Source: a virus. Taken from it: 23,905 nucleotides of DNA. Where the stretch lies: IMG/VR virus record IMGVR_UViG_3300031576_000271, positions 1 to 23,905 of that record, one strand, 5' to 3'. The number at the start of each line of letters is the position of its first letter. Position 1 is the first letter of the stretch. This document shows, piece after piece, positions 5,991-20,765 of this stretch. Below the pieces are notes generated by a model, which was not told the DNA's origin, did not search any database, and worked only from the letters and a program-made list of their open reading frames with translations. Both the position numbers and the translations under genes were made by a program.

Positions 5991-6031
5991 TTAGAAAACG
6001 AAACCTTTATATAGAATAATTGTTTTACTCC

Positions 6032-6046
6032 TTTATAAATCTTTCG
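6032..6046 (-). promoter_or_regulatory. Archaeal BRE/TATA promoter for the fibre-tail unit
   Basis: On the minus strand this reads CGAAAGATTTATAAA: a BRE-like CGAAAGA followed by the TATA box TTTATAAA (6032-6039). The predicted transcription start is about 6010, some 20 bases before the gene at 5990. Upstream sequence (to about 6063) shares TAACGAAAG and an ATTGTAC-type element with the portal-operon and RNA promoters. Confidence 0.7.
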
Positions 6047-6095: not shown

Positions 6096-6902
6096 TTAGC
6101 CTAAATCTCCTTCTAATATGTCCATTGCCCAAGCATCAAACATATACAAATTAAAGAATTGATAAGGAATCCAGCAGAATCCTTTATTTCCCCATAAGAT
6201 TCCCCAGCTATTCATTATTTCAAAAGATTGTTTTTGATCATCAAATCCAATAACAACATAAGCATGTCCTCCTCTATTTGTTCCTGTTTGATTTGGAGAC
6301 ATTTGTTCGCCTATTTGATTAATAAAACTATCATAAACATAAGTGCCAACTACAATTGGTTTTCCTTCTGTTAGTGCTTTTTTCATATCTTCAATAGATG
6401 TTATTCTATGATACTCCTTTGCTTTCCAAAATCTTGCCATTGAATATGCAAAGATACTTGGAGTTTCATTATATCTGTTTATATCATAAGGACATAATTT
6501 TTCAGAACAAATTCCTATTTTATTTAATACTTTTGCATTTTCTCTTAAAAATGCTCCTGAATCTTGAGGAAGAGTATTCATATATTCTGAATCTCTTACT
6601 GTATAATAATTGAATCTTTCACTTAATTCTTCATACCAATCTGGTTTATGTTTTTTATACATAACTTCCATTGAAGTTGCATAAGCATGTGCACTACAAC
6701 TTCCAATAGAACCTTGATTTTTAACTGGTGGACAGAATTCTTTTAAACTATAAGAAATAGGAATTGTTGAAACTTTTGCTATGTAATAATGATCTCTTTT
6801 ATCAATAGGATCTTTTTGAACATTACAAATGAATTTATTATTGCCTTCTATTCTTTTTGGCTTTCTTAATAATTTTAATAATAATTTAAATAGTCTTTTC
6901 AT
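6096..6902 (-). CDS. Papain-like (C1A) cysteine protease
   Basis: A papain-fold protease with all four catalytic positions, numbered from the ATG at 6902: Gln63 in the oxyanion hole (KNQGSIGSC), nucleophile Cys69, His213 (GGHAYVVIGFDD) and Asn231 (NSWG). The mature domain runs from about residue 45 to the end (268). There is no long inhibitory propeptide; residues 1-20 form a strongly basic amphipathic stretch (MKRLFKLLLKLLRKPKR). Starts at 6926 (ATG) or 6929 (GTG) are possible but would overlap the preceding gene further, and no candidate has a good SD site. It is the last gene of the capsid operon, next to a permuted NlpC/P60-like gene. Likely roles are host envelope breakdown at entry or release, or processing of virion proteins. 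Confidence 0.88.
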   Translation of the reverse strand: MKRLFKLLLKLLRKPKRIEGNNKFICNVQKDPIDKRDHYYIAKVSTIPISYSLKEFCPPVKNQGSIGSCSAHAYATSMEVMYKKHKPDWYEELSERFNYYTVRDSEYMNTLPQDSGAFLRENAKVLNKIGICSEKLCPYDINRYNETPSIFAYSMARFWKAKEYHRITSIEDMKKALTEGKPIVVGTYVYDSFINQIGEQMSPNQTGTNRGGHAYVVIGFDDQKQSFEIMNSWGILWGNKGFCWIPYQFFNLYMFDAWAMDILEGDLG

Positions 6903-7395
6903 AACTAAACATCTTTTTGAATCCATCACACTTTGCTAAATCTCCTGGACTCACTGTCCAAGTTTGTGAATCTACGCACATAAATATTCCAGAATTAATA
7001 TAAGCATCTGCAACTAATTCAGAACACCAATATCTTCCTTTTTCATCAAAAGGATTTACTTTTCTATGTTTTAATATTCCCAGGAATATTCCAAATATTC
7101 CCATATAATCATATTTATATCCTGTTCTTGTGTCTGCCCAATCACAGATGTCTTTTTGTTTTTCAGGAGTTATAGATGAATGCCGGTATATATCATAATG
7201 ATCATATTTAGTAATTGGACTTTTTATAACACCATTTGGAATATCTGATTCTATAATCTGATTATTTCCAACATAAAGAGCGACATGAGAATATTCTGAT
7301 TTTGTTAAAGTTCTAATTAATCTAGAAACAAATCCTGGTCTTTTTTTTACTAATATTAAATCCGCTTTTCGTAACATTGATTCTAAGCTATCCAT
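6886..7395 (-). CDS. Permuted NlpC/P60-like (YiiX/YebB-type) cysteine hydrolase
   Basis: A 169-residue protein with the permuted papain-fold pattern of the YiiX family: ADLILVKKRPG at the start, SHVALYVG with His37, IIES with Glu49, GYKYDYMGI at about 92-100, WCSELV with Cys124, and a closing SPGDLAK at about 149-155. In this permuted arrangement the His precedes the Cys. Family members are amidase/peptidase-like enzymes acting on amide or thioester bonds, often in cell-wall or lipid contexts. No signal peptide is visible. It overlaps the papain-like gene, and together they look like an entry or lysis pair. The start lacks an SD sequence and lies about 32 bases from a TATA-like stretch, so it may be leaderless. 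Confidence 0.8.
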   Translation of the reverse strand: MDSLESMLRKADLILVKKRPGFVSRLIRTLTKSEYSHVALYVGNNQIIESDIPNGVIKSPITKYDHYDIYRHSSITPEKQKDICDWADTRTGYKYDYMGIFGIFLGILKHRKVNPFDEKGRYWCSELVADAYINSGIFMCVDSQTWTVSPGDLAKCDGFKKMFSYEKTI

Positions 7396-15142: not shown

Positions 15143-15174
15143 TTTATAAATCTTTCTAGTATATAAATCTTTCG
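15143..15174 (-). promoter_or_regulatory. Tandem archaeal promoters for the portal-capsid operon
   Basis: On the minus strand two BRE+TATA units occur in line: CGAAAGATTTATATA (TATA 15160-15167) and AGAAAGATTTATAAA (TATA 15143-15150), offset by 17 bases. Predicted starts are near 15139 and 15121, ahead of the portal ATG at 15103. Sequence upstream to about 15190 shares ATTGCAC...TAACGAAAG with the promoters at 6032 and 20578. Confidence 0.75.
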
Positions 15175-18911: not shown

Positions 18912-19022
18912 TTATCGCTGAGATGAAGAAGAAGTCATGAACAAACAATCATCACATATCTTTCTGTCCTCTCTGAATAAACTATCAATTCTCATTATCC
19001 CGCACATCATACAAATTTTCAT
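18912..19022 (-). CDS. Tiny zinc-ribbon-like protein, 36 residues
   Basis: The protein begins MKICMMCGIMR and has two cysteine pairs, CMMC at residues 4-7 and CDDC at 23-26, the spacing of a minimal zinc knuckle or ribbon. GGAG precedes the ATG at SD distance, and it follows the 102-residue cysteine-rich gene by 18 bases. Such mini zinc proteins are frequent in archaeal viruses and often bind nucleic acid or host regulators. The function here is unknown. Confidence 0.65.
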   Translation of the reverse strand: MKICMMCGIMRIDSLFREDRKICDDCLFMTSSSSQR

Positions 19023-19040
19023 ATTCTGGCTCCATAATAT

Positions 19041-19349
19041 TCAAACTGTTTTTTTATCTCTTCTTGATTTTGATCTTGGTAAGCGCAACTTAGACACTGA
19101 TGGTTTATTACTACTCCTTTTCTCTCGTTGCATTGAAAGCATCTCTTTAGTCCTTTTTTGGCGCTTGTCATTATCTCTATCCACTAACCAGCAATGTCCT
19201 GGTATCATACAACATCCATGTACTTCCCATACTTTCTTAGTACTACAAGTTGATTTAGACATATAGTCTATGCCTTCTCTTGTAGGGTGTCCTATGCCGC
19301 ATGAGCATAATTGTTCTACTAACCCTGTCTCTCTGACTATCGTTCTCAT
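19041..19349 (-). CDS. Cysteine-rich zinc-binding-type small protein
   Basis: A 102-residue protein with six cysteines and two or three histidines in residues 16-53: LCSCGIGHPT, STCSTKK, VHGCCMIPGHCW. The C-G-I-G-H-P and H-G-C-C elements resemble a small phage family, common in actinobacterial phages, with C-x-H-G-x-G-H-P followed by W-G-x-H-G-C-D-G-C-C; that match is from memory. The last 45 residues are very basic (KRQKRTKEMLSMQREKRSS...), suggesting nucleic-acid contact. It overlaps the preceding gene (ATGA). A long frame on the opposite strand covers the same bases but lacks a ribosome-binding site and any recognisable features. Confidence 0.65.
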   Translation of the reverse strand: MRTIVRETGLVEQLCSCGIGHPTREGIDYMSKSTCSTKKVWEVHGCCMIPGHCWLVDRDNDKRQKRTKEMLSMQREKRSSNKPSVSKLRLPRSKSRRDKKTV

Positions 19350-19570
19350 TTTCTCATCCGTTGATAAAGTCTGTAATATGATTTTCCATATTGTCCGTTA
19401 TGGAATTTATCGTAATATAATATAACTGCGCCCCTAGTATAATCTGCCCTTGCTAAGGCATTTATGATGTTATTAAAGTTATCTGTACTTCCTGCTTCTA
19501 TATCACTCATCTGACTGTTCTTGAAAATGAACTTTTCTAATTCACTTAGTTTTATGGTTTTCTTCTTCAT
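19346..19570 (-). CDS. Hypothetical small protein, 74 residues
   Basis: A basic alpha/beta protein (IKLSELEKFIFKNSQMSD; ADYTRGAVILYYDKFHNG). It has a TAATG overlap with the gene before and an ATGA overlap with the gene after, so it is firmly inside the operon. No recognised motif. It could be a small regulator or host-takeover factor, judged only by location near the divergent control region. Confidence 0.55.
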   Translation of the reverse strand: MKKKTIKLSELEKFIFKNSQMSDIEAGSTDNFNNIINALARADYTRGAVILYYDKFHNGQYGKSYYRLYQRMRK

Positions 19571-19782
19571 TATAATCTTTTAACTGTCTGTTCTTTAATT
19601 GAGTTTGATATGGTATTGATTTTCTCTTTTCTTTCTTTCTCATTCTTAATCTTCTCCAACATCAATCTCTTCTGCTTTCTTTTATATCGTTTATATAAAA
19701 CCTTTAAATACTCAACCGCTATATCGGCTGCGAGTATAACAAAGAACAGTATTATGTTCTCTATTACTGTTGTTGAGCTCAT
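19570..19782 (-). CDS. Single-helix membrane protein with basic coiled-coil tail
   Basis: A 70-residue protein with a membrane segment at residues about 7-25 (IENIILFFVILAADIAVEYL) followed by a strongly basic helical tail (KRYKRKQKRLMLEKIKNEKERKEK). GGGAGGT precedes the ATG at ideal spacing. As the first gene of the leftward small-gene unit it follows a leader with two perfect hairpins. The layout suggests a membrane-anchored protein with a cytoplasmic tail that may bind DNA or RNA. No family recognised. Confidence 0.6.
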   Translation of the reverse strand: MSSTTVIENIILFFVILAADIAVEYLKVLYKRYKRKQKRLMLEKIKNEKERKEKINTISNSIKEQTVKRL

Positions 19783-19813
19783 TTTAACCTCCCTTTATCA
19801 GTTCGGTCTTACA

Positions 19814-19838
19814 GGAAATAAAATACTATTTTATTTCC
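19814..19838. repeat. Perfect 11-pair inverted repeat
   Basis: GGAAATAAAAT (19814-19824) and ATTTTATTTCC (19828-19838) with a three-base loop, just ahead of the first small gene. Directly adjacent to another perfect hairpin, so a deliberate structure (operator, terminator or leader element) is likely. Confidence 0.6.
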
Positions 19839-19842
19839 GTAC

Positions 19843-19869
19843 ACAAACTTAATTAAAAATTAAGTTTGT
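19843..19869. repeat. Perfect 12-pair inverted repeat
   Basis: ACAAACTTAATT (19843-19854) and AATTAAGTTTGT (19858-19869) with a three-base AAA loop, four bases from the previous hairpin. The two hairpins form a tandem pair in the presumed leader of the gene at 19782. Confidence 0.6.
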
Positions 19870-19927
19870 TGTATCAGCTTAATATTCTTTAAATATGATG
19901 TTTGTTACTCAGTGATTTATCTCTCTC

Positions 19928-19984
19928 TTAGTGAGATGTTACTTTCTTAGAGAGTAATGTTCTCTGTTAGAGAGTGATGTGCTC
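19928..19984. repeat. Three direct repeats with about 20-base period
   Basis: Starts at 19928 (TTAGTGAGATGT), 19947 (TTAGAGAGTAATGT) and 19967 (TTAGAGAGTGATGT), with a weaker related copy near 19904. A GATGTG/CACATC hairpin (19976-19981, 19987-19992) ends the row. This iteron-like spacing places each copy on roughly the same helix face after two turns. Confidence 0.55.
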
Positions 19985-20070
19985 CTCACATCTCTTCTCA
20001 CTTACTCATTTTCCTCTTCTTGAACTCTCTGCACATATTAGCAACTTTCTGCTAAGTTGTGCAAGTTTAA

Positions 20071-20092
20071 GTAAAATCTTACCAGATTTTAC
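20071..20092. repeat. Perfect nine-pair inverted repeat
   Basis: GTAAAATCT (20071-20079) and AGATTTTAC (20084-20092) around TACC. A further hairpin, TGAGATAA/TTATCTCA (20150-20157, 20165-20172), lies 57 bases away. Both are in the non-coding region and could be binding sites or RNA structures. Confidence 0.5.
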
Positions 20093-20360
20093 GAATTAAT
20101 ACTCATTATTACACATAGTAGAGCCCCCCTTATTACTCTCTTTTGTTACTGAGATAAAAAAGTATTATCTCACCTAATTATCACTATTATAGTCATAACC
20201 TATGTGTATTCTCCTATTATACTTTACCTGTTAATCTACTTAACAACTAAGCTTAATTCTTCCTTATTATATACTTATATTTATCCTATAAGTAAGGTTT
20301 ATATATTTGCTTCACTACTTACTCATGTTTGTAATATATTTGAAAAGAGCGTGAACTATA

Positions 20361-20386
20361 TGAAAAGAAAGAAATTAAATAAATAC
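20361..20386 (-). terminator. T-rich stretch at the end of the candidate RNA
   Basis: On the minus strand a pyrimidine-rich, T-run-containing stretch follows the last helix of the candidate structured RNA by about 22 bases. Archaeal transcription typically ends at T-runs, so a transcript from the 20561-20592 promoters would end here at roughly 170-200 nucleotides. Confidence 0.4.
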
Positions 20387-20407
20387 TTCCTTAGTTTATC
20401 CTACTTC

Positions 20408-20558
20408 GTAGCTACTCGGCAGTTAGTTGCATGGGTTTAGCTTTTTAGTATTGCTAAACAACTGCGTCAACATAACTCCATAGGTTTTGTTTAGCTCAGG
20501 ATTAGTCTCAGCATGCAGGCTCTTACTCTGCATCTTCATTGACATACGCCTAAGCTAC
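20408..20558 (-). ncRNA. Candidate structured non-coding RNA
   Basis: Starts at the predicted transcription start of strong tandem promoters. Four helices nest without conflict: P1 pairs 20553-20558 with 20408-20413 (GTAGCT/AGCTAC); P2 pairs 20539-20543 with 20466-20470 (GTCAA/TTGAC); P3 is a hairpin of 20528-20533 with 20513-20518 (ATGCAG/CTGCAT); P4 is a two-part hairpin of 20460-20465 with 20419-20424 and 20453-20459 with 20435-20441. A competing nine-pair stem (20453-20461 with 20487-20495) could replace P4. A T-rich end follows. It contains a 40-codon frame (20423-20545, starting MSMKMQSKSL) without an SD site, so a tiny leaderless-type gene is the main alternative. It is not a tRNA and matches no RNA family I know. 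Confidence 0.5.
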
Positions 20559-20560
20559 CA

Positions 20561-20592
20561 TATATAAAACTTACTACTATATAAAACTTTCG
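20561..20592 (-). promoter_or_regulatory. Tandem archaeal promoters for the candidate RNA
   Basis: Minus strand CGAAAGTTTTATATA (TATA 20578-20585) and, 17 bases downstream, AAGTTTTATATA (TATA 20561-20568). Predicted starts are about 20556 and 20539. The distal unit carries TAACGAAAG and an ATTCTAT element upstream (to about 20603) like the portal and fibre promoters, and the 17-base tandem spacing equals that at 15143-15174. Confidence 0.7.
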
Positions 20593-20682
20593 TTAAAGTA
20601 TAGAATAAATAATAATAATCCTATTGCTAAGCAACATTGCTAACCCATAGCTTTATATATGTGAATAAAAAATAAGCAAAGA

Positions 20683-20690
20683 TTTATATA
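20683..20690 (+). promoter_or_regulatory. Upstream TATA box of the rightward unit
   Basis: GCAAAGA followed by TTTATATA, with a predicted start near 20712. No gene starts at once, so this may give a longer-leader transcript of the same unit or be a secondary promoter. Confidence 0.45.
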
Positions 20691-20735
20691 TAACTTCCAA
20701 AAGGTTTCCTGTGTGAGTATATAAATAAACATAAG

Positions 20736-20743
20736 ATTTATAT
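20736..20743 (+). promoter_or_regulatory. Main promoter of the rightward unit, leaderless start
   Basis: ATAAGA followed by TTTATATA. The predicted start (about 20764) practically coincides with the ATG at 20766, fitting a leaderless archaeal mRNA. It faces away from the promoters at 20561-20592, forming a divergent control region of about 150 bases. Confidence 0.6.
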
Positions 20744-20765
20744 AGCTAGAATACATATATAGTAT

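Follow-up and report, generated by a model that had tools for sequence, protein, structure and literature searches.

A late-type archaeal promoter and a modestly folded, probably untranslated 5' stretch in the divergent control region of a head-tailed virus

Introduction

What does the leftward promoter in the long non-coding region of this virus drive: a separate RNA, a small protein, or the front of a late messenger? The window, i.e. the whole stretch of DNA analyzed here, is a complete IMG/VR record of 23,905 bases. The virus is head-tailed and archaeal, with promoters of archaeal type. In the window, the genes for terminase, portal, maturation protease and major capsid all point leftward, and the rightward set consists of small genes and a P-loop ATPase. 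These two divergent gene sets are separated by non-coding positions 19783-20765, which hold the promoter and the folded stretch examined below. A sequence-only reading of this locus had proposed a virus-encoded, promoter-driven structured regulatory RNA. To our knowledge, regulatory RNAs of archaeal viruses have hardly been described, and a proven one would be of interest, if true.

Results

Upstream of the stretch, the following elements were located on the minus strand.

20578-20592, minus strand: BRE (CGAAAG, 20592-20587) and TATA box (TTTATATA, 20585-20578); 0.00 matches to the pattern are expected in shuffles of the window
20561-20568, minus strand: second AT box (TTTATATA) at -12 to -5, assigned by alignment to leaderless genes and by the P. 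furiosus layout
20556, minus strand: predicted transcription start, an A preceded by T (20557), 29 nt past the first TATA base

Both TATA-like boxes of the tandem promoters that had been read at 20561-20592 are present; their interpretation as two separate promoters, however, did not hold. In the leaderless genes 18825 and 20766 and in that of the viral contig L017, the ATG lies exactly 29 bases after the first T of the TATA box, and in a TATA-aligned comparison the same offset at the leftward promoter lands on A20556. Gene 18825 and L017 carry the corresponding second box just before the ATG, too near to it for a TATA role. Since the distal box thus stands at the exact TATA-to-start distance of leaderless genes, the two boxes are most simply read as one core promoter, of which 20568-20561 would be the initially melted region. 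Promoters of P. furiosus comprise a BRE, a TATA box at about -30 to -23, an AT-rich initially melted region at -11 to -2 and a pyrimidine-purine pair at -1/+1 (PMC6640164). All these elements are matched here, with BRE and TATA at the fixed distance from the start, an AT-rich melted region and T/A at 20557/20556; unlike in P. furiosus, the melted region is itself TATA-like, which gives the appearance of two promoters. By these sequence criteria, the leftward promoter is real.

A position matrix was built from eight promoters of this virus, its relative L010 and L017. With this matrix, 20585 was among the best leftward sites of the window, a rank that is partly circular because the site belonged to the training set. 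A relaxed promoter pattern gave 2 matches in the window against 0.00 expected in shuffles. Kin promoters of the same layout were found at 15167 and 18854, ahead of two late units, which bears out the grouping of the leftward promoter with these two. Both late units of L010 have retained the layout, as has the more distant relative L011, and it also occurs in the unrelated viral contigs L017 and L018; at 5750-5792 of L017, BRE, TATA and second AT box stand directly ahead of a leaderless ATG. From this late-class layout, common to several viruses, transcript starts can be predicted to within one or two bases.

A further promoter-like element faces the leftward one.

20298-20305, plus strand: opposing rightward promoter-like TATA, with a start at about 20327; score 15.2, outside the training set

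The site (20298-20327) points through the same stretch, and only small frames lie behind it. Elsewhere in the window (6006-6039), the BRE/TATA type recurs in a leftward promoter at 6039, which faces a rightward promoter-like TATA at 6006, 26 bases away.

The folding of the first bases downstream of the predicted start was then considered, with the elements listed here.

20493-20556, minus strand: 5' hairpin domain, with a closing helix of 8 pairs (AGCUUAGG/CCUGAGCU) from +1; z -2.7, p 0.014
20400-20484, minus strand: 3' domain, which contains P4; alone only z -1.4
20419-20465, minus strand: P4, of 13 pairs and one 10-nt bulge, whose inner stem (GUUUAGC/GCUAAAC) has a pair probability of 0.92-0.99
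20453-20495, minus strand: 9-pair stem proposed as an alternative (20453-20461 with 20487-20495), an exact inverted repeat that RNA folding does not favour

For the 157 bases from +1 (20556-20400), the minimum energy was -43.2 kcal/mol, a value equalled by 1% of dinucleotide shuffles; for 20387-20556 on the minus strand, 5 of 200 such shuffles were as good, and the shuffle p varied from about 0.01 to 0.05 with the chosen 3' end. The excess was confined to one strand (z -2.4 on the minus strand vs -0.5 on the plus strand). Genome-wide, z < -2.36 was reached by 52 of 476 windows of 150 bases (11%), and other windows of the same intergenic region reached z -4.5 to -6, far beyond their shuffles, so that the stretch is no outlier in stability. 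The first 165 bases would thus be predicted to fold modestly better than chance.

The minimum-energy fold consists of two local domains, 20556-20493 and 20484-20400. The earlier proposal that helices P1-P4 nest in a single fold was not borne out by the energies, and the pairing between the two ends, 5' and 3', on which it relied, had a maximum pair probability of 0.0003 and appeared only in the costly fold that contains the alternative nine-pair stem. The helix closing the 5' domain had a pair probability of 0.89-1.0; helices of at least 8 pairs from the first base occur at 2.0% of 766 minus-strand positions. P4 was recovered as described, i.e. as a 13-pair hairpin with one bulge, in which 20465-20453 pair with 20441-20435 and 20424-20419. 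As for the nine-pair stem, which had been taken to disrupt P4 as in a switch, the 9-base inverted repeat is exact; the switch itself was not supported by the energies, the stem having a pair probability of about 0 and the forced fold being 10.6 kcal/mol worse. With such a gap, two exclusive folds of similar energy, as in a switch or attenuator, were not found for the stretch. A switch driven by a ligand or a protein is conceivable, although nothing points to it. A search for known RNA families gave no Rfam match for the stretch, and a permissive threshold yielded one chance match elsewhere.

The open frame within the stretch, which had been named as the main alternative to an RNA, was found where expected.

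20423-20545, minus strand: 40-codon open frame (20545-20423), probably not a gene according to codon usage and homologue searches

Its codon-usage score was -0.32, equal to the median of 36 chance frames, and all 18 held-out small genes scored higher (-0.26 to 0.27). No relative was found in phage records or PHROGs, and the frame has no Shine-Dalgarno sequence. ATG 20539, however, stands at leaderless distance from the second AT box, so that the frame might still be a gene; on its codon usage, it is probably non-coding.

Beyond the fold, the extent of the transcript was examined, with three further features on the same strand.

19570-19782, minus strand: first gene of the leftward set, 70 aa; Shine-Dalgarno GGGAGGT
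19783-20556, minus strand: putative untranslated leader of about 774 nt of the leftward transcript, suggested by purine bias and by the lack of another strong leftward promoter
20361-20386, minus strand: T-rich stretch, weak candidate terminator; longest run 4 T

The purine fraction of the minus strand was 0.595 in 19783-20360, against 0.58-0.615 in the leftward genes; 20557-20765 had 0.455 and the rightward genes 0.381, and the purine walk has its maximum and turns at 20594, i.e. at the promoter. The position matrix found no other strong leftward promoter in 19790-20550 (best score 5.4, vs 20.7 for the promoter itself). Taken together, the strand bias over the next 580 bases and this lack of another strong promoter suggest read-through to gene 19782, and the Shine-Dalgarno sequence of that gene indicates that a leader precedes it. 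The T-rich stretch was confirmed: 17 of its 26 minus-strand bases are T, which places it in the top 0.85% of windows. In Methanococcus maripaludis, the termination factor needs at least two U4 tracts to bind efficiently (PMC8716108); with one run of four T, the stretch would be at best a weak terminator.

Homologues were sought at the level of both DNA and protein. In phage and plasmid records, the stretch gave only chance matches of 22-45 bases, and the exact tandem-promoter pattern had no match in viral contigs; a looser pattern led to L010 and to L017/L018, in which the promoter is present and the control region absent. Protein queries identified L010 as a close relative (capsid protein 89% and terminase about 69% identical) and L011-L014 as distant ones, none of L010-L014 reaching or keeping the control region. 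L010, the nearest, stops at the equivalent of about 18.95 kb of the window, short of this region. Two genome-contig scans gave no match. In those parts of the 34.7 kb contig of L014 that were read, no non-coding stretch of comparable length was seen, and this contig is too distant to inform on this point.

Discussion

Of the explanations weighed, a long leader, about 774 nt, of a leftward late transcript ranks first, the stretch being its folded front end; we propose it tentatively, at a little short of an even chance. Behind it come a discrete regulatory RNA, then control sites acting at the level of DNA and finally a small protein. The promoter, the predicted +1, the hairpins and the strand bias are seen in the sequence; transcription itself, read-through to gene 19782 and protection of the 5' end are inferences. 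A late-type archaeal core promoter (BRE, TATA and AT-rich melted region) would initiate leftward transcription at A20556, and the first 774 bases of the RNA would most likely be untranslated, forming a leader for the late operon that starts leftward with gene 19782. The first 165 bases would form two local hairpin domains, the first of them closed by a helix from base one, which would shield the 5' end of the RNA; the same 5' hairpin would hold the start codons of the short frame inside it. Some transcripts may end at the T-rich stretch (20386-20361).

Viral late messenger RNAs may carry long 5' leaders. The present locus resembles them in its late-class promoter, its untranslated stretch and the Shine-Dalgarno sequence of the first gene; it differs in its unusual length and in having no homologue that shows a conserved leader fold. 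Several points weigh against a leader. The strand bias could also stem from replication starting in the control region, and a leader of 774 nt, which is very long, would include palindromes and repeats resembling a replication or control region. Transcription may stop early, at the T-rich stretch, and the genes after 19782 could be driven from a weak TATA at 19699. Furthermore, the significance of the fold is modest genome-wide, and the site was itself part of the training set of the promoter matrix.

The regulatory RNA of the sequence-only reading survives in part. A probably untranslated, locally folded RNA agrees with the promoter anatomy, the helix at +1 and the codon score; that it is a separate RNA is not borne out, given the lack of a homologue and the minimal terminator. 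Structured, discrete and encoded by the virus, such an RNA would span about 170-195 nt between 20556 and the T-rich stretch and would act in trans or oppose the rightward transcript from about 20327; we regard it as rather unlikely. Its helix does begin at the predicted +1, as at 2% of random positions, its GC content is 41% when the remaining intergenic sequence has 27%, it would reach a T-rich stretch that falls in the top 0.85% of windows, and it would be fully complementary to the rightward transcript of the opposing promoter at 20298. On the other hand, the single run of 4 T falls short of the two U4 tracts of the methanogen data (PMC8716108), no homologue or Rfam match was found, and the same z-score is reached by 11% of genomic windows. 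Nor was a convincing complementary target found at 46 gene starts (best p 0.02 uncorrected, none surviving correction). The narrower version, in which an RNA of 170-195 nt, unlike described families, is made from the late promoter and pairs with the opposing rightward transcript, is somewhat less probable again. The ColE1 RNAs I and II form an antisense pair, to which the locus is alike in its possible overlapping opposite transcripts within a non-coding control region; it differs from ColE1 in that nothing here points to a primer, to an initiator that would match or to conserved loops.

The fold could also be incidental, the stems being inverted copies of a putative protein-binding site (GTTTAGC / TTGYTTAGC) near the promoter in a region that exerts its control as DNA. 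Three of the four copies of GCTAAAC in 23.9 kb lie at 20435, 20453 and 20489, and TTGYTTAGC is present only at 20453, 20487 and 20626, the motif having been picked post hoc; moreover, the whole 1 kb region is rich in inverted repeats, several of which fold on both strands. As folding is better on the minus than on the plus strand and a helix boundary coincides with the predicted +1, we consider sites of this kind improbable. The least probable explanation is a short mRNA for a protein of 38-40 residues, beginning at ATG 20545 after an 11-nt leader or, leaderless, at ATG 20539. The exact leaderless spacing of the second AT box and the leaderless appearance of several genes of the same virus would suit it; the codon score, which is under the lowest (-0.26) of the small genes, the missing relatives and Shine-Dalgarno sequence, and the position of the start codons within the folded 5' domain argue against it.

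The late-class promoter layout makes a precise prediction, namely a start at 20556 and a leader of about 774 bases. On sequence grounds, what is present is a credible promoter followed by a modestly structured and probably untranslated 5' stretch.

Additional features of the window

Several repeats were noticed in the control region. Copies of GCTAAAC and TTGCTAA cluster in an operator-like manner at 20435-20650, three of the four genomic GCTAAAC lying within 61 bases. At 20020-20085 there is a long near-perfect palindrome (TGCACATATTAGCA...TGCTAAGTTGTGCA; plus-strand z -4.8), and repeats of about 20 bases that resemble iterons (TTAGAGAGTRATGTKCTC) stand at 19925-19985 beside a second inverted-repeat block, as a candidate replication origin. 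Just ahead of the Shine-Dalgarno sequence of gene 19782, two perfect 12-base inverted repeats lie back to back (19814-19869), among the strongest local folds of the intergenic region (z -5.6).

ARAGORN found no tRNA, which left the reading of an integration site without support. Among the leftward genes, 6096-6929 encodes a papain-family cysteine protease (Pfam PF00112, E 4e-14). In the first leftward operon, three small overlapping frames at 18912-19349 are cysteine-rich and zinc-ribbon-like, and a similar cysteine-rich frame is found at the start of L010.
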